Assembly: GCF_004364975.1 (NCBI RefSeq)
Contig: NZ_SOBW01000007.1
Coordinates: 1,426,001 to 1,490,000 of the forward strand
DNA: 64,000 bases
Source of the DNA: Gelidibacter sediminis
GTDB lineage: Bacteria > Bacteroidota > Bacteroidia > Flavobacteriales > Flavobacteriaceae
Direction: 5' to 3'
In this document: piece by piece, positions 36,811 to 59,958 of the stretch
Position numbering within the stretch: position 1 is the first letter of the stretch
Layout: every line of letters begins with the position of its first letter
Position numbers and translations under genes: made by a program
The notes under the pieces: generated by a model
What the model was told of the DNA's origin: nothing
Databases searched by the model: none
Seen by the model: the letters and a program-made list of their open reading frames with translations, nothing else

Positions 36811-38106
36811 TTACTCAGAAATCCCAAATGCAGCTCTCACTTCGTCAATACGATCTAATTTTTCCCATGTAAATAATTCTACATCTAGCGTTATCGATTC
36901 GCCGTTAAACTGCTCAAATGTTTTTGTAACCGTTTCATTAACGCGTCCCATATGGCCATAAGCAGCCGTTTCACTATACATCGGTTGACGTAGTTTCAAG
37001 CGTTCTTCAATTGCAGCTGGACGCATATCGAAAATCCCGAAAATTTTCTCAGCAATTTCGCCATCGGTCAAATTAAAAGGACACGTTCCATAAGTGTTCA
37101 CGTAAATTGAGGTTGGTTTTGCAACACCAATAGCATAACTTACTTGAACCAAAATTTCATCACACAAACCAGCAGCAACAAGGTTTTTAGCAATATGACG
37201 CGCCGCATATGCAGCACTACGGTCTACTTTACTAGGGTCTTTGCCACTGAAAGCACCACCACCATGAGCACCTTTTCCGCCATAAGTATCTACAATGATT
37301 TTACGGCCTGTAAGTCCGGTATCTCCATGTGGTCCGCCAATTACAAATTTACCGGTAGGGTTGATATGGTAGGTAATGTCATCATTAAATAAAACCTGAA
37401 TGTGCTCAGGAAGACCTGCAACAACTCTCGCAATTAAAATTTCGATAATGTCTTTTCTAATTTTCTCCAACATTTCAATTTCAGCAGCATCAATATCTGC
37501 TTTTGAATTTGATTTTGGTTTCACAAAATCGTCATGTTGTGTAGACACTACAATCGCATCAATACGTTGTGGTACGTTGTCATCACTATATTCAATAGTC
37601 ACTTGACTTTTAGAGTCTGGACGTAAATACGTGATCTCATTATTTTCTCTACGTAAAGCAGCCAATTCAATCATCAAACGATGTGAAAGATCCAATGCCA
37701 ATGGCATATAATTCTCAGTCTCATTGGTAGCATACCCGAACATCATCCCCTGATCTCCTGCGCCTTGCTCTTCTTTGTTTGCTTTGTCTACACCTCTATT
37801 GATGTCTTCAGATTGCTCGTGGATTGCAGAAAATACACCACAAGAATTGCCGTCAAACATATAGGCACCTTTAGTGTAACCAATTTTGTTGATGGTATCT
37901 CTAGCAATTTTTTGTACGTCTAAATAGGTATTTGATCTTACTTCGCCTGCAAGTACAACTTGGCCAGTAGTGACCATAGTTTCACACGCAACTTTTGAGT
38001 CTTTATCAAAAGCTAAAAAATTGTCGATTAATGCATCGCTAATTTGATCTGCTACTTTATCAGGATGTCCTTCAGAAACGCTCTCTGAGGTAAATAAATA
38101 CGCCAT
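36811..38106 (-). CDS. metK: S-adenosylmethionine synthetase
   Basis: 431 aa, slightly longer than E. coli MetK (384) as usual in Bacteroidota. It makes SAM from methionine and [17 protein letters not shown] (residues 10-23), [27 protein letters not shown] and [16 protein letters not shown] are the substrate and metal loops. The leader of about 150 bases carries a candidate SAM riboswitch, so the enzyme is probably repressed by its own product. It diverges from metY. Confidence 0.96.
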
Positions 38107-38133
38107 AACCTTTTGTTTATTATAGGTTTACGG

Positions 38134-38251
38134 AAGATTTGACGTTGCGCGTCGAAGGTAGTTTCCACTGCCTTTAGCATTTTTAGTCCCAAGTTCGATT
38201 TAAAATTTAAGTCTATTGGAAGAGGTTGCAATCAGTCAAATCTTTCCTCTC
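38134..38251 (-). promoter_or_regulatory. SAM-II-like (long-loop) riboswitch candidate in the metK leader
   Basis: Read on the minus strand, GAGAGG (38246-38251) pairs with CCUCUU (38220-38225). The 20-base loop contains GAUUUGAC and ends UUGCAA, and UGCUAAAGG follows at 38170-38180. These blocks match SAM-II aptamers, with longer connecting loops. Downstream, GUCAAAUCUU (38134-38143) is a perfect complement of AAGAUUUGAC (38235-38244) in the loop and could act as the expression platform. Location upstream of metK fits. The class assignment is from memory of the SAM-II consensus and was not tested by covariance search. Confidence 0.7.
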
Positions 38252-38264
38252 AATTAATATGTGG

Positions 38265-38294
38265 CAAAAGTAAAAAAATTAAACGGATGGCAAA
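38265..38294 (-). promoter_or_regulatory. Promoter of metK
   Basis: Minus strand: TTTG (38291-38294), 18 bases, then TACTTTTG (38265-38272). Transcription would start near 38258, a few bases before the riboswitch hairpin. Confidence 0.7.
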
Positions 38295-38440
38295 TCCTTT
38301 TAAAATTATTTCGTTTAAAATTAACGTTTGAAATTTTTTTTAATTTAAAATAGACTCATGTAAAGCACTGTAAACGAAAGTTTTATGACTGTTTTTTGAG
38401 GGGCTTGAAACGGTGTGTTTAAAAATTAAACCGCAATTAA

Positions 38441-38473
38441 TTTGGAATTGTAATTTTTGTGTTGCAATATTTG
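38441..38473 (+). promoter_or_regulatory. Candidate promoter of the SAM-I/metY transcript
   Basis: TTTG (38441-38444), 21 bases, then AATATTTG (38466-38473), one mismatch from TAnnTTTG. It lies about 30 bases before the riboswitch. Confidence 0.4.
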
Positions 38474-38503
38474 TGCTCACAAAGTTCAAAAACTTATTGA
38501 AGT

Positions 38504-38622
38504 GTTATCAAGAAAGGCGGAGGGATTAGACCCGATGAAGCCTTAGCAACCCTCTAGCAATAGTGAAGGTGCTAAATTCTACTTAATTGCTGATTCATTT
38601 ATCGGCTAATTGGATAGATAAC
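38504..38622 (+). promoter_or_regulatory. SAM-I (S-box) riboswitch upstream of metY
   Basis: P1 pairs GTTATC (38504-38509) with GATAAC (38617-38622). The conserved core AGAAAGGCGGAGGGATTAGA, then CCGATGAAGCCTTAGCAACC and AAGGTGCTAAATTC, matches the S-box consensus nearly throughout. After the aptamer, AATTAC/GTAATT (38630-38647) plus a T-rich tract, and a complement to the metY start codon, are possible expression platforms. Confidence 0.93.
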
Positions 38623-38744
38623 TAAACATAATTACTCATCTGTAATTATAATTTTTCTTTTTAACATTTTTCTATTTGGTACGTCAGTGATGACGCAGTT
38701 GGCTTTTGTTTTAATTCATTTATTAACTCAAAAAAATTAGAAAA

Positions 38745-40037
38745 ATGAGTACACACAAATTCGCAACCCAAGCGTTGCACGCAGGACATGATGTTCAAGC
38801 AAACGGAGGCACCAGAGCAGTGCCAATTTACCAATCTACAGCGTATGTTTTTAAAGATTCAGACCATGCCGCAAACTTATTTGCACTGGCAGAACCAGGA
38901 AACATTTACACGAGAATCAACAACCCTACCAACGACATTTTAGAGCAGCGTTTAGCAGCACTTGATGGCGGAATTGCAGCAGTTGTAACCGCTTCAGGAA
39001 CCGCAGCAATTGCAACTACGCTTTTAACACTCTTGAGAGCTGGAGACCATATTGTGGCATCAAGCAGTTTGTATGGAGGGACTTACAATTTACTAAGTGT
39101 AACCTTACCAAGACACGGCATCACTACAACATTTGTAGATCCGTCTGACCCAGAAAATTTTGATAAAGCAGCCCAAGAAAACACGCGCGTCTTCTTTATT
39201 GAATCTTTAGGAAACCCAAAATTGGATGTCTTGGATATCAAAGGGATTTCTAAACAAGCAAAAGCTCATAAAGTGCCGTTAATTGTAGACAATACCATTG
39301 CCACTTCATATTTGGTAAAACCTATTGAACACGGTGCCAATATCGTTATTCACTCCTTAACAAAATATGTTAACGGTAATGGAACCGCTCTTGGAGGTGC
39401 TATTATTGATGCCGGAACATTTGATTGGGCCAATGGAAAATTCCCAGAATTTACGGAGCCTTCAGCAGGTTACCACGGATTGGTTTATACTGATGTTTTA
39501 AAAGAAGCGTCATTTATTGCTAAAGTGCGTATTGAAGGCTTGCGCGATTATGGCTCTGCTTTGAGTCCGTTTAATGCATTTCAAATTATTCAAGGTTTGG
39601 AAACATTAGAGCTCCGTATCAAACAACACAGTAAAAATGCGTTGGAATTGGCCAAGTGGTTACAAGAACAAAAGGAAGTGACTTGGGTCAATTATCCTGG
39701 ACTTGACAACAGTCCGTATAAAGCCCTAGCTGAAGAATATTTGCCTGAAGGACAAAGCGGACTCGTGACCTTTGGCGTGATTGGTGGCTATGAATCGGCT
39801 AAAACTATTGCCGATAAAACACAATTATTTTCTTTGTTAGCTAATATTGGTGATACCAAATCGCTCATCATTCACCCAGCAAGTACCACACATCAACAAC
39901 TATCTGATGAAGCTCAAGAAACCACCGGAGTGACTAAGGACTTGATCCGTTTGTCAGTTGGATTGGAGCATATTGATGATTTAAAAGCCGATTTGAAACA
40001 AGTGTTCGCACTGATCAAAGAAAAGGTCGAAGCTTAA
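38745..40037 (+). CDS. metY: O-acetylhomoserine sulfhydrylase
   Basis: 430 aa, the MetY size. A PLP enzyme of the Cys/Met metabolism family that joins sulfide and O-acetylhomoserine to give homocysteine. N-terminal FATQALHAGHD, the PLP lysine in VIHSLTKYVNGNGTALGGA, and IHPASTTHQQL are diagnostic; the long insertion around residues 220-260 (FPEFTEPSAGYHGL) separates MetY from MetB/MetZ. It is controlled by the SAM-I riboswitch upstream. Confidence 0.94.
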   Translation: MSTHKFATQALHAGHDVQANGGTRAVPIYQSTAYVFKDSDHAANLFALAEPGNIYTRINNPTNDILEQRLAALDGGIAAVVTASGTAAIATTLLTLLRAGDHIVASSSLYGGTYNLLSVTLPRHGITTTFVDPSDPENFDKAAQENTRVFFIESLGNPKLDVLDIKGISKQAKAHKVPLIVDNTIATSYLVKPIEHGANIVIHSLTKYVNGNGTALGGAIIDAGTFDWANGKFPEFTEPSAGYHGLVYTDVLKEASFIAKVRIEGLRDYGSALSPFNAFQIIQGLETLELRIKQHSKNALELAKWLQEQKEVTWVNYPGLDNSPYKALAEEYLPEGQSGLVTFGVIGGYESAKTIADKTQLFSLLANIGDTKSLIIHPASTTHQQLSDEAQETTGVTKDLIRLSVGLEHIDDLKADLKQVFALIKEKVEA

Positions 40038-40046
40038 GAATTTTTT

Positions 40047-40086
40047 AAAAGCAAGTCAGCGTAGGTTATGCAGACTTGCTTTTTTA
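40047..40086 (+). terminator. Terminator between metY and the metX-AK-HSD fusion gene
   Basis: AAAAGCAAGTC (40047-40057) pairs with GACTTGCTTTT (40073-40083) followed by T. The start codon of the next gene is only 20 bases beyond. Confidence 0.8.
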
Positions 40087-40106
40087 TTCATCCTAATACG
40101 TGTTCT

Positions 40107-43100
40107 ATGATTCCATTGAATTTTCTAGAAATTAAAAAGTACACCACTGAAAATGGCACAGAGGTGGACATTCAACTGTCCTATGAGCTCTTTGGTCAGC
40201 CTTTGCATGAGGCGCCTATCGTATTGGTTAATCATGCGTTGACAGGAAATAGCAATGTTGCGGGAAAAGGTGGCTGGTGGTTGGATTTGATTGGTCCTGA
40301 TAAAGTAATTGACACCAACGCGTACACTATTTTATCGTTCAATATTCCTGGAAATGGGTATGACGGATTCCTGATTGATAATTACAAAGATTTTGTTGCC
40401 CGGGATATTGCTAAATTATTCTTGGAGGGCTTAAAACAATTGAAAATCACTAAAGTGTTCGCTTTAATTGGTGGTTCTTTAGGAGGCGGTATTGCTTGGG
40501 AAATGGCATTTCTATCTCCAAAATTGGCCGAATATCTTATTCCTGTAGCAACCGATTGGAAATCGACCGACTGGCTGATTGCCAATTGTCAGATTCAAGA
40601 GCAATTTTTAGTCAATTCCAACAATCCTGTTCATGATGCCCGCATGCATGCCATGTTATGCTACAGAACGCCAAAATCGTTTAAAGAGCGCTTTCAACGC
40701 AGTAAAAATGACGACTTGGAAATCTTTAATGTGGAAAGCTGGTTACTACATCACGGGAATAAATTGCAGGAGCGATTTCAATTGTCTGCATATAAATTGA
40801 TGAATCAGTTGTTAAAGACTATTGATGTTACCAAGAACAATGGTGACAATGCCGATATTTTAAACACAATCCATTCGAACATCACAATTGTTGGCGTCGA
40901 TTCAGATTTATTTTTTACGGCTGAAGAAAATCGGGAAACTCAAAAGCAACTCGCATTAACACATCCAAATGTAACTTACAGCGAAATCAATTCAGACCAC
41001 GGGCATGATGCTTTTTTAATAGAATTTGAACAATTGGAAAAAATTATAGAGCCAATTTTTAGGCCTAATACAGCACATAAGAAAATGAAAATATTAAAGT
41101 TTGGTGGAAAATCTTTAGCGAATGGTGAAGGACTACAACGTACCATCGCTATCATCAAGAATAAAGTAGAAGACCAAGAGAAAATTGCCGTCGTTGTTTC
41201 TGCTCGTGGGAGCGCTACAGACGATTTAGAACATATATTATTGAAAGCATCGCAACGCGAGGATTATCAAGTAGAATTTGACGCTTTCAAAACGTATCAA
41301 ACAGAACCTTTACCAGCAATAGATTTTACAGAGGAATTTGCCGCTTTAGAAAATATTTTTCACGGGGTCAGACTTTTAGGCGATTATAGCAATAAAATAA
41401 AAGCTGAGGTTTTGGCTTATGGCGAGCTACTTTCTGCAAAGTTGATTACAAGCTTATTAAAGAACGATAACATTAATGCGAATGCCACCAATGCAGCAGT
41501 ATTAATTAAAACAGACGATGATTTCCTAAATGCACAACCTAATCAAAAGCAATCTCGAGAGAATGTTTTGGCGCATTTCAAGAATTATAATGGCACAACA
41601 GTAAATATTGTCACCGGTTTTATAGGGTCTAATGCCAAAAATGAAACGACTTTGTTGGGTAGAAATGGCAGTAATTATTCGGCGTCATTATTGGCTAATT
41701 ATTTAGATGCCGAAGAGCTTCAAAACTATACACATGTTAACGGAATTTACACGGCAAATCCTGATTTGGTGACTGAGGCTCAAAAAATAAGGGAATTGTC
41801 GTTTTCTGAAGCCAATGAGCTGGCCAATTTTGGTACCACGGTATTGCACGCCAAAACCATCATTCCGTTGTTAGAAAAGAATATCAAACTGCGGATTTTA
41901 AACACCTTCAATTCAGATGATGAAGGCACGTTGATTTCTGCAAAAGCCAATTCAAAAGAAGTGACATCTTTATCGGTTTTGGATAACGTGGCTTTATTGA
42001 ATTTGGAAGGACGCGGCTTGCTCGGAAAAGTAGGTGTAGATGCTCGCATATTTAAGGCATTGAGCCAACATAATATTAGTGTCAGCATTGTTTCGCAAGG
42101 CTCTTCTGAGCGTGGCATTGGTTTGGTGATTGATGCCGATAAAGCCACTCATGCTGTGATTGCCTTAGAACGCGAATTCGAAAATGATTTTTATTCTCAA
42201 GATGTCAATAAAATTGAGGTTATAGATGATGTATCGGTGATTTCCATTATCGGAATTGAATTGGGGTCGTTTCATAAACCGTTTAATGCCTTGATAAAAA
42301 ATCAAATCACACCGTTATTATTTAACAACACCGTAACGGGTAGAAATGTGAGTTTGGTCGTCCGTAAAAAGCACTTGCATAAAGCAGTCAATGTCATTCA
42401 TGGTGAAATATTTGGAGTTTCCAAGAAAATCAATATTGCCATTTTCGGACATGGTGGTGTTGGTGGTGCGCTGATCAATCAAATTCTAAAATCAAAAAAT
42501 GAAATTGAAAAACGAAAAGGCATCAACTTGAATATTTTTGCAATCGCCAATTCCAAACATGTGCTTTTCAATAAAAAAGGAGCTGATGAAAATTGGAAAC
42601 AAACACTAGCGAACATTTCAGAAAGCTATACAGTTCAAGATATCATTGACTTTGCAAAAACACACCATCTCGAGAATCTTATTGCTGTAGATAATACGGC
42701 AAGTTCAGAGTTTTATAATAATTACATTCCGTTGGTAGAGGCCGGATTTGATTTGGTGTCTTCCAATAAAATCGCCAATACAATTTCTCATGACTTTTAT
42801 TCAGAACTCAGAGAAAATTTAGAGCAGAACAAAAAGAATTATTTATACGAAACTACGGTTGGTGCTGGGTTGCCATTGATTGATACTATCAAATTATTGC
42901 ATGAATCTGGGGAGAACATCACACGAATTAGAGGGGTATTTTCAGGAACATTAAGCTATTTGTTCAATAATTTTTCAGTAGAGGACAAACCGTTCAGTTC
43001 GATTGTTCAAGAAACCATTGATAAAGGCTTTACAGAACCAGATCCACGTGAAGATTTCTCAGGTAATGACGTCGCCAGAAAACTATTAATATTGGCAAGG

Positions 43101-43502
43101 GAACTCGACCTGCAAAATGAGTTTGAGGATATATCTGTAGAAAATCTGATTCCAGAAGCCTACAGAGACATTTCTACAGAACAGTTTTTAGAGCAATTGG
43201 ACGTGTTAGACGCTAAATTTCAAGCTATAAAAGAAGGGCAAAAGGAAGGTCACGTGTTGCGTTATGTAGGCGACCTATCCGGTGATCTTTCACAAGATAA
43301 AGGGAATCTTGAAGTCAAATTGGTATCCATTCCATTGGATAGCACGCTGGGACATATTAAAGGCTCCGATGCTATTTTTGAAATTTTCACAGAATCTTAC
43401 GGCGAGCAACCTATCGTTATTCAAGGCGCAGGAGCAGGAGCAGAAGTGACCGCTAGAGGTGTCTTTGGAGATATTTTGAGATTGTCAAAACACATTAATT
43501 AA
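40107..43502 (+). CDS. Trifunctional fusion: MetX-like homoserine O-acetyltransferase, aspartokinase, homoserine dehydrogenase
   Basis: 1131 aa from the ATG at 40107; the ATG at 40068 lies inside the terminator hairpin and is unlikely. Residues 1-320 are an alpha/beta hydrolase of MetX type with Ser124 in GGSLGGG, Asp267 in DSDLFF and His300 in HGHDAFL as the triad. Residues 327-about 620 form an aspartokinase (KFGGKSLANGEG, LGRNGSNYSAS), followed by ACT-like regulatory repeats. Residues about 775-1131 are homoserine dehydrogenase (IFGHGGVGG, VGAGLPLIDTI, GTLSYLFNNF). It thus covers the first and third steps from aspartate to homoserine plus its acetylation, feeding metY. The kinase has Lys335 and Asn523 where homologues usually have Thr and Asp. 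Confidence 0.92.
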   Translation: MIPLNFLEIKKYTTENGTEVDIQLSYELFGQPLHEAPIVLVNHALTGNSNVAGKGGWWLDLIGPDKVIDTNAYTILSFNIPGNGYDGFLIDNYKDFVARDIAKLFLEGLKQLKITKVFALIGGSLGGGIAWEMAFLSPKLAEYLIPVATDWKSTDWLIANCQIQEQFLVNSNNPVHDARMHAMLCYRTPKSFKERFQRSKNDDLEIFNVESWLLHHGNKLQERFQLSAYKLMNQLLKTIDVTKNNGDNADILNTIHSNITIVGVDSDLFFTAEENRETQKQLALTHPNVTYSEINSDHGHDAFLIEFEQLEKIIEPIFRPNTAHKKMKILKFGGKSLANGEGLQRTIAIIKNKVEDQEKIAVVVSARGSATDDLEHILLKASQREDYQVEFDAFKTYQTEPLPAIDFTEEFAALENIFHGVRLLGDYSNKIKAEVLAYGELLSAKLITSLLKNDNINANATNAAVLIKTDDDFLNAQPNQKQSRENVLAHFKNYNGTTVNIVTGFIGSNAKNETTLLGRNGSNYSASLLANYLDAEELQNYTHVNGIYTANPDLVTEAQKIRELSFSEANELANFGTTVLHAKTIIPLLEKNIKLRILNTFNSDDEGTLISAKANSKEVTSLSVLDNVALLNLEGRGLLGKVGVDARIFKALSQHNISVSIVSQGSSERGIGLVIDADKATHAVIALEREFENDFYSQDVNKIEVIDDVSVISIIGIELGSFHKPFNALIKNQITPLLFNNTVTGRNVSLVVRKKHLHKAVNVIHGEIFGVSKKINIAIFGHGGVGGALINQILKSKNEIEKRKGINLNIFAIANSKHVLFNKKGADENWKQTLANISESYTVQDIIDFAKTHHLENLIAVDNTASSEFYNNYIPLVEAGFDLVSSNKIANTISHDFYSELRENLEQNKKNYLYETTVGAGLPLIDTIKLLHESGENITRIRGVFSGTLSYLFNNFSVEDKPFSSIVQETIDKGFTEPDPREDFSGNDVARKLLILARELDLQNEFEDISVENLIPEAYRDISTEQFLEQLDVLDAKFQAIKEGQKEGHVLRYVGDLSGDLSQDKGNLEVKLVSIPLDSTLGHIKGSDAIFEIFTESYGEQPIVIQGAGAGAEVTARGVFGDILRLSKHIN

Positions 43503-54870: not shown

Positions 54871-54929
54871 AACTTGGTCAACTATTTTTTATGGCTTAAA
54901 TTCGCCCCTAGTTCATACTATTAATAATT

Positions 54930-55044
54930 GTTATCACGAAAGGCAGAGGGATTAGACCCAATGAAGCCTTAGCAACCCTTTACTCATAAAGAAGGTGCTA
55001 AATTCTACTTTATTCTGAATTTATTCAGGATTTAGACAGATAAC
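54930..55044 (+). promoter_or_regulatory. SAM-I (S-box) riboswitch upstream of split metH
   Basis: P1 pairs GTTATC (54930-54935) with GATAAC (55039-55044). The core CGAAAGGCAGAGGGATTAGA, CCAATGAAGCCTTAGCAACC and AAGGTGCTAAATTC matches the S-box consensus and closely resembles the metY copy at 38504, with differences mainly in the peripheral stems. Confidence 0.93.
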
Positions 55045-55071
55045 CAAAGTGTATTTCTCTCACTTTCCTGA

Positions 55072-55101
55072 TGACATTTTTATTTTTTTACAAGAATGTC
55101 A
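55072..55101 (+). promoter_or_regulatory. Hairpin that would sequester the metH start codon
   Basis: TGACATT (55072-55078) pairs perfectly with AATGTCA (55095-55101), which contains the ATG. The 16-base A/T-rich loop holds the ribosome entry region. It follows the SAM-I aptamer by 27 bases and could be its expression platform. Confidence 0.5.
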
Positions 55102-56097
55102 GATATAAAAACCGCATTACAACACCGTATTTTAGTTTTAGATGGGGCCATGGGCACCATGCTACAACGCTATAATTTTTCGGAAGAAGATTTCCGAGGC
55201 GAGCGTTTTAAAGAGTATCCAAGCTCCGTTAAAGGCAATAATGATTTGTTGTCGCTCACCCAACCCCAAGCAATTGCTGACGTGCACCGTAAGTATTTTG
55301 AGGCGGGTGCTGATATTGTGGAAACGAACACCTTCTCAGGGACTACCATTGCAATGGCCGATTATGACATGGAAGATCTGGTATACGAACTGAATTATGA
55401 ATCTGCTAAGATTGCGAAACAGGTTGCCGACGAATTTACCAATACCAATCCTGACAAACCCCGATTTGTTGCCGGAAGCATTGGGCCAACCAATAAAACG
55501 GCGAGTTTATCTCCTGATGTTAACAAACCTGAATTTCGAGCCATTACGTTTGACGAATTGCGCATTGCCTATAAACAACAAGTGGAGGCATTAATTGATG
55601 GTGGCGTTGATGTCCTTTTGGTCGAGACCATTTTTGATACTTTAAATGCCAAAGCAGCCTTATTTGCAATTGAAGAAGTTAAGGAAGAACGTAATATAGA
55701 CATTCCTATAATGGTATCCGGAACCATTACCGATGCTTCAGGACGAACACTTTCAGGACAAACGGTGGAAGCGTTTTTATTATCCATTTCCCATATTCCG
55801 TTACTGAGTGTCGGATTTAATTGTGCATTGGGTGCTGATCAGTTGCAGCCTTACTTGCAACGTTTATCCAACGAAACTGACTTTTACACGTCAGCCCATC
55901 CCAATGCCGGTCTGCCCAATGCGTTTGGCGAATATGAGCAAACTGCTGATCAGATGAACGCTTTAATTGAAAACTATTTGAAAGATGGTTTGGTCAATAT
56001 TATAGGCGGATGTTGCGGAACCACCCCAGAACACATTAAGAAAATTGCAGACACCGCAAAAAATTATCAACCTCGAAAAATTGAAGTGATCATTTAA
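55096..56097 (+). CDS. metH: Methionine synthase, homocysteine-binding module (split MetH, part 1)
   Basis: 333 aa, only the N-terminal homocysteine S-methyltransferase barrel of Met[25 protein letters not shown] (residues 12-35, abridged) opens the domain. The three Zn-binding Cys are in [13 protein letters not shown] and [11 protein letters not shown]. The remaining modules are encoded by the next gene, 83 bases downstream. This is a natural split rather than a frameshift: both proteins have proper starts and an intergenic spacer. Confidence 0.93.
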
Positions 56098-56180: not shown

Positions 56181-58856
56181 ATGAGCAAGACTAAGAAATA
56201 CCTAACACTTTCAGGACTCGAACCATTAATCGTGACTCCTGAGAGTAATTTTATAAATGTAGGTGAACGCACCAACGTTACAGGGTCACGAAAATTCCTG
56301 CGACTTATTAAAGACGAAAACTATAGTGAAGCCTTAGATGTGGCACGTGATCAGGTGGAAGGCGGTGCCCAGATTATAGACGTCAATATGGATGAAGGCA
56401 TGTTGGACGGCGTATATGCAATGACCAAATTTTTGAATTTAATTGCGTCAGAACCTGATATTGCCAAGTTGCCGATTATGATTGACAGTTCCAAGTGGGA
56501 AATCATTGAAGCTGGCTTGAAAGTGGTTCAGGGGAAATCAGTGGTCAACTCCATCAGCTTAAAGGAAGGCGAAGAGACTTTTATCAAACAAGCCAAATTG
56601 GTAAAGCGCTACGGCGCCGCAGTAATTGTGATGGCGTTTGATGAAGATGGCCAGGCCGATACATTAGACAGGCGTATTGAAATTTGCAAACGCTCCTATG
56701 ATATTTTAGTAAATAAGGTCAAATTTCCTGCTCAGGACATTATTTTCGATCCTAATATTTTTCCAGTCGCAACCGGCATGGACGAGCACCGATTAAATGC
56801 CTTAGACTTTTTTAAGGCAACCAAATGGATTCGAGAAAACTTGCCATACGCCAATGTTTCGGGTGGTGTCAGTAACGTGTCTTTCTCTTTTAGAGGAAAT
56901 ACTGTTGTTCGGGAAGCCATCAACTCGGCATTTTTATATCACGCCATTCAATATGGGATGAATATGGGAATCGTCAACCCAACCATGTTGGAAATTTATG
57001 ATGAAATTCCGAAGGATTTATTGGAGCATGTTGAAGATGTATTGTTTGATAGACGTGAGGATGCTACGGAGCGCTTATTGGATTTTGCCGAGACGGTTAA
57101 GGGCGACAAGAAAGAAGATGTTGCCAAAATTTTGGAATGGCGAAATGATGCCTTACAGGACCGGATTACGCATGCGCTGGTGCGCGGAATTGAAACCTTT
57201 ATCATTGAAGATGTAGAGGAAGCGCGTCAGCAAACGGGAAAACCTATTGAGGTTATTGAAGGCCATTTAATGATTGGGATGAGTGTTGTTGGAGACCTCT
57301 TTGGAAGCGGTAAAATGTTTCTTCCCCAAGTAGTCAAATCCGCGCGAGTCATGAAAAAGGCAGTCGCCTATTTGCAACCGTTTATTGAAGCCGAAAAAGA
57401 TGGCAAGCAGGAGTTTGCAGGCAAGGTTTTAATGGCGACCGTTAAAGGTGATGTTCACGACATTGGTAAAAATATTGTGAGTGTGGTTTTAGGTTGTAAC
57501 AATTATGAAATCATCGATTTAGGAGTAATGGTGCCACCGGAAAAAATCATTGAAACTGCTGTCAGAGAGAATGTCGATATTATCGGTTTGAGCGGATTGA
57601 TTACGCCTTCTTTAGATGAAATGGTGTATGTGTCCAAAGAAATGCAAAAAAAGAACATCAATATTCCTCTAATGATTGGCGGCGCCACAACATCTAGAGC
57701 ACATTCTGCAGTTAAAATTGCCCCAAATTACGGCCATACTGTCGTGCATGTTAATGATGCTTCGAGAGCAGTAACCGTGGTGGGTAATTTACTTCAAAAG
57801 GACAATCGCGTTTATAAAGAGCAAATTCGTGAAGAGTACGAAAAATTTCGAGAGCAGTTTTTAAAGCGTGGCAAACAGAAAAATTTCGTGACTATTGAAG
57901 AAGCCAGAAAACGCAAATTTAAAATCGATTGGAACACTACTGAAATTGTCAAACCTAACCAATTGGGCGTTCAAATTATCGAAGACTTTGAGCTTAAAAA
58001 ATTAGAGGCCTTTATTGATTGGAGTCCGTTTTTTAGAAGTTGGGATTTGCATGGCAAATATCCCGAGATTCTTACCGATGAAGTTGTGGGTGAACAGGCG
58101 ACGGAGTTGTTTGCTGATGCAAAAGCTTTATTGAAAAAAGTGTTGGATGAAAAACTGTTGAAAGCAAAGGCGATTTTCGGATTGTACGCCGCAAACACCA
58201 TTAATGATGATGATATTGAAATTTACGATGCTTCAGGAAAAACACAAGTCACTTTTTTAACCCTGCGGCAACAATTAGAAAAACGGGAAGGCCTGCCGAA
58301 TTTTGCGTTAGCCGATTTTATAGCGCCTAAAGATTCAGGAAAACAGGATTATATGGGCTGCTTTTGTGTGTCTACGGGTTTTGGAACCGCAGAATTAGCA
58401 GCGCAATATGAGAAAGATCTTGATGATTACAATTCGATTATGATTAAAGCACTAGCCGATCGACTTGCGGAAGCATTTGCAGAATATTTACATAAGGAAG
58501 TGAGAACCAATCATTGGGGCTATGATTCTGATGAGAATTTATCTAATGACGAATTGATTAAAGAAAGCTATAAAGGCATTCGTCCGGCACCCGGATATCC
58601 AGCATGTCCTGACCATCTGGAGAAAAAAACAATTTGGAAGCTGTTGCAGGTCAAGGAAAATATTGGTGTGGAAATTACAGATAGTTTAGCGATGTGGCCA
58701 GCGGCAAGTGTTTCAGGCTATTATTTTGGAAATAAAGAATCCAAGTATTTCGGACTCGGGAAAATCACCCAAGACCAATTAAAAGATTACGCCAAAAGAC
58801 GCGGTATTAGCAATGAGGAAGCGGAAAAATGGTTGAATCCTAATTTGGCGGATTAA
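56181..58856 (+). CDS. metH: Methionine synthase, folate, cobalamin and activation modules (split MetH, part 2)
   Basis: 891 aa. Residues 1-300 are the methyltetrahydrofolate (pterin) domain ([25 protein letters not shown]). Residues about 330-565 are the cap and B12 domain with [10 protein letters not shown], in which His ligates cobalt. The C-terminal 300 residues are the SAM-dependent reactivation domain ([30 protein letters not shown]). It works with the product of the gene upstream and needs methyl-folate from metF downstream. Confidence 0.95.
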
Positions 58857-58972: not shown

Positions 58973-59001
58973 AAAAAAATCCCACATTGGGGAAATTACA
59001 C

Positions 59002-59958
59002 ATGAAAGTAACAGATCACATTAAACAAGCAAACGGAAATACACAATTTTCTTTTGAAATCTTACCACCATTAAAAGGGCAGCACATCCAATCAATTTTT
59101 GATAATATTGACCCATTGATGGAATTTAAACCGCCGTTTATTGATGTGACCTACCATCGGGAGGAGTATGTATTTAAAGAACAGGAAAATGGCCTGCTCA
59201 AAAAACAAGTGGTAAAGAAGCGACCAGGAACCGTAGGTATTTGTGCGGCAATTCAAAATAAATATAAAGTAGATGCCATTCCGCATATTTTATGTGGTGG
59301 ATTCACAAAAGAAGACACTGAGAATTTTCTGATAGATCTTGACTTTTTAGGAATCGATAATGTGATGGCGTTACGCGGGGATGCCGTTAAAACGGAAACT
59401 TATTTCAGGCCAGAAAAAGATGGGCATGAATATGCTAATGGCTTGGTGCAACAAATTAGCGCTTTAAATGAAGGCGTATACTTGGATGAAGAACTTCAAA
59501 ATTCCTCAAAAACCGACTTTTGCATTGGCGTAGCGGCTTATCCTGAAAAGCATATGGAATCGCCAAGTTTGGAAAGTGACATTCATTTTTTAAAGAAGAA
59601 GATTAAAAATGGCGCCGAGTATGTCGTGACCCAAATGTTTTTTGACAATCAGAAATACTTCGATTTTGTAAACAAATGTAGAACTGAAGGCATCACGATA
59701 CCAATCATTCCTGGATTAAAACCAATTGCTACAAAAAAGCAACTGAACTTGTTGCCACATCGCTTTCATGTGGACTTACCTGAAGATTTAATTTTAGAAA
59801 TTGTTAAATGCAAGGACAATGTGGCAGTGAAACAAGTGGGCATTGAGTGGTGTATCCAACAATCTAAAGAACTGCAACAAGCAGGCATTCCGGTGTTGCA
59901 TTATTATTCAATGGGGAAAAGCGATAATATTCAAACCATAGCATCGCAAATTTTCTAA
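59002..59958 (+). CDS. metF: Methylenetetrahydrofolate reductase
   Basis: 318 aa from the ATG at 59002 (MKVTDHIKQ); the in-frame TTG at 58987 is a weaker start. It reduces methylene-THF to methyl-THF, the methyl donor for MetH. FSFEILPPLKG carries the catalytic Glu, and VTYHREEY, VMALRGDAVK, VAAYPEKHMES and TQMFFDNQKYFDF are conserved FAD and folate sites. Same orientation as metH, 145 bases downstream. Confidence 0.95.
   Translation: MKVTDHIKQANGNTQFSFEILPPLKGQHIQSIFDNIDPLMEFKPPFIDVTYHREEYVFKEQENGLLKKQVVKKRPGTVGICAAIQNKYKVDAIPHILCGGFTKEDTENFLIDLDFLGIDNVMALRGDAVKTETYFRPEKDGHEYANGLVQQISALNEGVYLDEELQNSSKTDFCIGVAAYPEKHMESPSLESDIHFLKKKIKNGAEYVVTQMFFDNQKYFDFVNKCRTEGITIPIIPGLKPIATKKQLNLLPHRFHVDLPEDLILEIVKCKDNVAVKQVGIEWCIQQSKELQQAGIPVLHYYSMGKSDNIQTIASQIF

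Follow-up and report, generated by a model that had tools for sequence, protein, structure and literature searches.

SAM is recognised by several RNA folds that are unrelated to one another, which poses the question of why a single organism should keep two of them. In Gelidibacter sediminis this question is raised by a locus where metK and metY are divergent neighbours and where the preliminary description placed SAM riboswitches of two classes on the two arms of one intergenic region. The window, i.e. the whole stretch of DNA that was analysed, comprises 64,000 nucleotides, and all coordinates refer to it. The following features were identified at this locus and in front of metH:

36811–38106, minus strand: metK, methionine adenosyltransferase (TIGR01034, 499.3 bits, cut-off 309.4)
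38163–38255, minus strand: SAM-II (long loop) aptamer of the metK leader (RF01726, 46.2 bits, cut-off 44, E = 1.2e-5, cmscan with gathering thresholds)
38265–38272, minus strand: TACTTTTG, candidate promoter element 5' of the SAM-II aptamer, by sequence resemblance to TAnnTTTG
38502–38624, plus strand: SAM-I aptamer of the metY leader (RF00162, 72.7 bits, cut-off 44.4, E = 4.4e-15, cmscan)
38745–40037, plus strand: metY, O-acetylhomoserine sulfhydrylase (TIGR01326, 634 bits, cut-off 495.1)
54928–55046, plus strand: second SAM-I aptamer of the window, 5' of metH (RF00162, 74.7 bits, cut-off 44.4)
55096–56097, plus strand: N-terminal part of a split methionine synthase MetH (NF007024 positions 11–338)

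When the Rfam models for SAM-I and SAM-II, including the long-loop model, were run with Infernal, RF00162 was found on the plus strand and RF01726 on the minus strand, both above the gathering score, which bears out the two classes on the divergent metK and metY arms, an arrangement that recurs in relatives. The metY leader does carry the standard SAM-I aptamer ascribed to it, the match to RF00162 being full-length as it also is in the copy 5' of metH, and 246 bases separate the two aptamers of the intergenic region, within the 260 given earlier. Whole-genome searches revealed one SAM-II and two SAM-I copies, all of them located in the window. Rfam matches in the surroundings that stay under their gathering scores, among them DUF2800 and a group II intron, were judged to be chance. 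SAM binding by the metY and metH leaders is predicted from their sequences. The element TACTTTTG resembles TAnnTTTG, which we take to be the -7 promoter consensus of Bacteroidota.

Two further gene arrangements were also observed in the window. MetH is encoded in two genes (55096–56097 and 56181–58856, plus strand) with the break at profile position 338/339, and metF is located 3' of them at 58987–59958. Downstream of metY, at 40068–43502 on the plus strand, a single 1144-aa frame fuses a MetX-like portion (approximately residues 20–334) with an aspartate kinase/homoserine dehydrogenase (340–1141), and a match to this protein lies 3' of SAM-I in 11 of 68 copies among relatives.

The SAM-II match scores just 2 bits above its cut-off, yet homologues with scores up to 73.1 bits are situated 46–112 nt 5' of metK in 52 of 59 genomes, the own genome included, and a chance match, considered as an alternative, was rejected both for this reason and because the gathering score is reached. 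In the RF01726 alignment, inspected by eye, the P1 stem is present in the metK leader and the ACUG/CAGU and GCA/UGC blocks are complementary. The blocks GAUUUGAC, UUGCAA and UGCUAAAGG, proposed earlier as the SAM-II core, are all inside the aptamer, while of the several long connecting loops described with them only one is long, L3 with its 44 nt. SAM binding by the metK-leader RNA is predicted from its membership of the SAM-II class. Loop L3 exceeds 18 nt in 28 of the 72 SAM-II aptamers compared but not in the other 44, and 25 of these 28 long loops fold better than mononucleotide shuffles (p<0.05). Fold prediction places a hairpin in the L3 of the metK leader itself (38187–38221, minus strand), where the own sequence gives p = 0.186 and is not significant. 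Among relatives the hairpins inserted in L3 vary in sequence, and in three leaders from another family of the class (L141, L144 and L146) the insert is found in a different loop, between the GATTTG and ATTGC blocks.

To see how the two classes are distributed, 59 genomes (relatives and the own genome) were compared. SAM-II was found in 53 of them (54 matches) and SAM-I in 45 (68 matches above the cut-off, three of 71 being under it and left out), with both classes present in 44. The SAM-II aptamer lies 5' of metK in 52 of the 54 copies and in all 18 further copies, one of which is below the gathering score, giving 70 of 72 examined. For SAM-I the downstream gene was taken as the best match to any of eight window proteins within ~1.5 kb, and for the 68 copies this was MetH in 32 cases, MetY in 22, MetX/ThrA in 11, a MetZ-like protein in three and MetK in none. 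Nor was a MetK match found 3' of any of the 117 SAM-I copies examined, which comprise these 68, the best-scoring 30 of a phylum-wide list and 19 picked in SAM-II-free genomes of the class, two of these 19 matching none of the eight window proteins. The division, SAM-II for metK and SAM-I for the methionine genes, is thus near-strict in the relatives. Sampling of 148 genomes across the phylum revealed SAM-II in 21 (20 above the cut-off), all in the class of the window, and SAM-I in 127 (126 above the cut-off).

The exception is one genome, G011, which has no SAM-I match. One of its two SAM-II copies (L006 and L037) is situated 5' of a metY whose product is 73% identical to the window MetY, and the other 5' of an unidentified gene with metH ~600 nt further on. 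In G011 SAM-I has apparently been replaced by SAM-II, and the two classes look exchangeable there. It was also observed that this genome, of 1.9 Mb, has no SAM-II 5' of metK.

Of the 44 genomes that have both classes, 16 show them as a close divergent pair, with 66 to 309 bases between the aptamers. Eight of these pairs belong to the own genus, three to other genera of the family and five to three other families, and ten pairs have metY as the partner gene of metK, five have metH and one has a MetZ-like gene. An additional divergent pair, with a gap of 170, was found in G086, and in G002 the contig ends 215 bases past SAM-I, its SAM-II possibly being cut off.

When analysing the leaders downstream of the aptamers, strands complementary to the aptamers' 5' arms appeared, along with hairpins that might act as attenuators:

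38132–38148, minus strand: anti-aptamer of the metK leader, RNA GCAACGUCAAAUCUUCC, 25 nt 5' of the start codon (duplex -17.9 kcal/mol, p = 0.003 against shuffles; present in the MFE structure)
38228–38247, minus strand: 5' arm of the SAM-II aptamer, GGAAAGAUUUGACUGAUUGC, partner of the anti-aptamer GCAACGUCAAAUCUUCC (from the duplex and the MFE structure)
38628–38649, plus strand: AU-rich hairpin followed by a U-rich stretch, 3' of the SAM-I aptamer (from leader sequences)
38652–38668, plus strand: candidate anti-aptamer 1 of the metY leader, UUUUUCUUUUUAACAUU, part of a helix with the SAM-I 5' arm in the leader MFE structure
38681–38697 (element 38681–38705), plus strand: candidate anti-aptamer 2 of the metY leader, ACGUCAGUGAUGACGCA (best 5'-arm duplex -14.7 kcal/mol, p = 0.025, locus L103)
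55062–55077, plus strand: anti-aptamer of the metH leader, ACUUUCCUGAUGACAU, 18 nt 5' of the start codon (duplex -15.1 kcal/mol, p = 0.010, locus L125; present in the MFE structure)

In the metK leader the helix between arm and anti-aptamer is part of the MFE structure at -29.8 kcal/mol, which becomes -19.4 kcal/mol when 38132–38148 is held unpaired, both values excluding pseudoknot and ligand energies. The start at 38134 in the preliminary description cuts into the second GATTTGAC stretch (plus strand), which is part of this anti-aptamer. Among the SAM-II leaders, where 52 of 54 were used and the two of G011 (no metK) were left out, the duplex between arm and tail is better than dinucleotide shuffles (p<0.05) in 30, including all eight from the own genus and 22 of the other 44, and fails to be so in 22; in a second SAM-II set it exceeds shuffles in 11 of 18. 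The 3' end of the duplex is at a median of 25.5 nt 5' of the metK start codon (52 leaders). Exchange of single arm bases was performed with the 40 of 52 arms that are 22 bases long, 12 of other length being left out. The usual base at position 13 is A; of 10 leaders with another base there, 9 form their best duplex with the base they carry (3.3 expected by chance), with an advantage over A of ~4.7–6.7 kcal/mol in seven of them. At position 6 the own base is best in 11.0 of 15 deviating leaders (chance 5.0). No compensation was found at position 5 (3.2 of 14, chance 3.5), at position 7 (0.5 of 7, chance 3.5) or at positions 15–17 (0, 0 and 0.5 of 2, chance 1 each). Own tails give a duplex of -15.4 kcal/mol against -12.8 kcal/mol for swapped tails, a moderate gain only. 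The anti-aptamer, which the preliminary description did not include, is the likelier switching part of the metK leader.

A similar picture was obtained for SAM-I, where the arm tested comprised aptamer bases 1–18, running from the P1 5' strand through the junction into the beginning of P2. A downstream complement beyond shuffles (p<0.05) is present in 44 of 68 leaders. The own genus contributes all 9 of its metH leaders and 5 of its 9 metY leaders, the other four missing the threshold, and 30 come from the 50 remaining leaders; two further sets gave 7 of 29 (phylum-wide list) and 9 of 19. Position 2 of the arm is compensated in 9 of 9 deviating leaders (chance 4.5), position 0 partially in 15.5 of 42 (chance 10.5) and position 1 likewise in 11.8 of 24 (chance 6.0), while in the same exchange positions 9, 15 and 17 are at chance and position 16 little above it. 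The gain of own over swapped tails is again moderate (-13.3 against -11.3 kcal/mol), and the 3' end of the duplex is at a median of 18 nt 5' of the metH start codon (32 leaders). A downstream strand complementary to the aptamer and compensated in relatives is thus found with exceptions, and more weakly for the metY leader. All anti-aptamer and compensation counts ignore kinship, relatives being non-independent samples. Loci L156 (further leader sets) and L210 (control set) were left out as incomplete, and L126–L128 and L197 were also left out of the comparisons.

As controls, leaders with other aptamers were put through the same test, and shuffles were exceeded by four of the 30 cobalamin leaders and by nine of the 29 TPP leaders; judging by these, the test is not simply permissive. 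The TPP leaders may in part share the design. In four of them (L212, L218, L224 and L228) a strand complementary to the first aptamer bases was observed 15–21 nt 5' of the start codon.

A terminator scan was performed on the leaders of both classes. Of the 68 SAM-I leaders 15 passed, as did 7 of 204 mononucleotide-shuffled sequences. In the metY leader (L103) the scan reported that 38681–38705 can alternatively form a hairpin of -5.8 kcal/mol with the U-rich tail UUGUUUUAAU, and left the AU-rich hairpin at 38628–38649 unreported. In the latter, a comparison of six sequences picked by hand shows U-A/C-G and A-U/U-A exchanges. From these folds the metY attenuator could be either the AU-rich hairpin with its U-rich stretch (38628–38668) or the hairpin at 38681–38705. 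For SAM-II the scan found no intrinsic terminator in the own metK leader and a terminator-like hairpin in one of 52 leaders, and such a terminator is unlikely for metK. Two terminator-like sites in the scan of 38000–38800 were discarded, as neither fits the metK leader: that at 38154–38175 (plus strand) is antisense to metK and overlaps the SAM-II aptamer at its 3' end, and that at 38762–38779 (minus strand) lies within metY. A hairpin around the metK start codon was likewise discarded, as it is weak and, by eye, not kept in the genus.

Taken together, we consider it probable that the metK and metY leaders each hold a SAM switch of their own, of known class, and that both exchange the aptamer for a helix between its 5' arm and an anti-aptamer. 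Each intergenic arm would then be under its own SAM feedback, with the long-loop SAM-II acting on metK and SAM-I on metY. In the metK leader the SAM-II pseudoknot and the long-range helix (38132–38148 with 38228–38247) would be mutually exclusive; at low SAM the anti-aptamer would capture the 5' arm of the aptamer and the long helix form, whereas at high SAM the aptamer would be stabilised, the anti-aptamer strand freed and expression lowered. The metY and metH SAM-I leaders would use the same kind of 5'-arm anti-aptamer. We infer ligand binding by both leaders, and judging from pathway logic and other SAM riboswitches both are most likely OFF switches with SAM.

The complementarity might instead be a by-product of pyrimidine-rich leaders that pair with purine-rich arms, leaving ordinary aptamers with some other, conventional switch. 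The 22 SAM-II leaders that do not beat shuffles, the several arm positions without compensation and the nine TPP controls agree with this, but dinucleotide shuffles preserve composition and are still exceeded by 30 of 52 SAM-II and 44 of 68 SAM-I leaders, and at the most telling positions 9 of 10 and 9 of 9 deviating aptamers have matching anti-aptamers, so that we regard a by-product as improbable. How the freed strand acts in metK is a separate matter, for which Rho, RNA decay and translation are left as candidates since no terminator was found and start-codon blocking is slight in metK leaders and not seen in those of metH. Shine-Dalgarno sequences are rarely used in this phylum, which speaks against a translational switch where the freed strand, with SAM bound, folds on the start region and blocks the ribosome. 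Such a switch also lacks a conserved blocking hairpin in the SAM-II leaders (by eye) and a start-region effect among 32 metH leaders, and we think it rather unlikely for metK, even though the anti-aptamer is close to the metK start codon at the median given above, the openness of the start region falls slightly in the bound-like fold (from 0.58 to 0.53), and a weak effect is seen over 70 metK leaders (mean z -0.59, p = 0.016; z below -1 in 22 and above 1 in 8). A somewhat doubtful but conceivable route is Rho-dependent termination or RNA decay, in which bound SAM would expose a G-poor, pyrimidine-rich leader; the leader tails contain 21.4% C and 11.0% G, their single-strandedness rises from 0.34 to 0.55 in the bound-like fold (partly by construction), and 51 of 52 leaders are without a terminator-like hairpin, but the tail composition is itself partly due to the complementarity with the purine-rich arm.

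Returning to the two separate switches with anti-aptamer exchange, the different set points for SAM and homocysteine synthesis that had been suggested for this locus are plausible, on the basis of the near-strict class split and of affinities published for other members, ~4 nM for the SAM-I of yitJ and ~10 µM for the SAM-II of metA (values given in the available part of PMC1273637). Were these affinities to apply to the two leaders, rising SAM would reduce methionine synthesis before metK, which would respond only to high SAM. Against distinct set points are the SAM-II before metY in G011 and the caveat, in that same part of PMC1273637, that weaker binding does not necessarily make for worse regulation in vivo. 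It is nearly an even matter, to our minds, whether the split is instead a historical inheritance with no bearing on set points. The confinement of all 21 SAM-II genomes among the 148 to one class means that a single early acquisition could explain it, and G011 argues in the same direction in that the classes can replace each other; on the other side, MetK is absent 3' of all 117 SAM-I copies although SAM-I can regulate metK elsewhere, the metK of Bacillus subtilis having a SAM riboswitch according to the accessible text of PMC12121620.

More tentatively still, two unrelated SAM folds may, within this bacterial class, have converged on one platform, a start-proximal strand that captures the 5' arm with neither Shine-Dalgarno masking nor a terminator; the pathway would be divided between the folds, SAM-II serving SAM synthesis and SAM-I methionine synthesis, and a single intergenic region would yield two SAM thresholds. 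Both classes are present in one genome and, in a fair share of relatives, in one intergenic region, and each is tied to a different pathway step, so the paired leaders allow the thresholds of the classes to be compared in the same cell. The shared anti-aptamer is in addition a concrete riboswitch proposal for a phylum where Shine-Dalgarno masking is hardly available.

Compared with the long-loop SAM-II model, RF01726, the metK leader covers model positions 1–60 end to end, its connecting loop is 33 bases longer, and it carries a downstream anti-aptamer, which the model does not cover. The usual SAM-I antiterminator uses the 3' strand of P1, unlike the candidate switching strand here, which is complementary to the P1 5' strand and the bases that follow it. 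Both SAM classes are already known, as are long-loop SAM-II RNAs in Bacteroidetes; the part of PMC2864571 available lists the latter for Bacteroidetes and marine samples, with additional files that treat SAM-II and may hold gene associations, and the alignment in the first SAM-II report included a member from Bacteroides thetaiotaomicron (PMC1273637, in the part available). No report of the class split, of divergent SAM-I/SAM-II pairs or of the anti-aptamer was found among titles and the opening lines of abstracts outside subscription journals, and neither long-loop SAM-II nor divergent pairs appear in the accessible portions of PMC3766115, PMC12452182 and PMC7366714. The SAM-II of Alphaproteobacteria, in metA and metZ leaders, binds SAM and belongs to the same pseudoknot class as the metK-leader aptamer, but often has putative intrinsic terminators (both from the available part of PMC1273637) where the metK leader has none, and masking of the Shine-Dalgarno sequence has also been reported for it, in the available text of PMC9373788. 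It precedes methionine genes, while here SAM-II precedes metK. A parallel in arrangement is the tandem SAM-II/SAM-V of Pelagibacter, which likewise brings two SAM classes next to each other but, as far as the accessible text of PMC11508383 describes it, in a single RNA, whereas here they are situated in two leaders on opposite strands.
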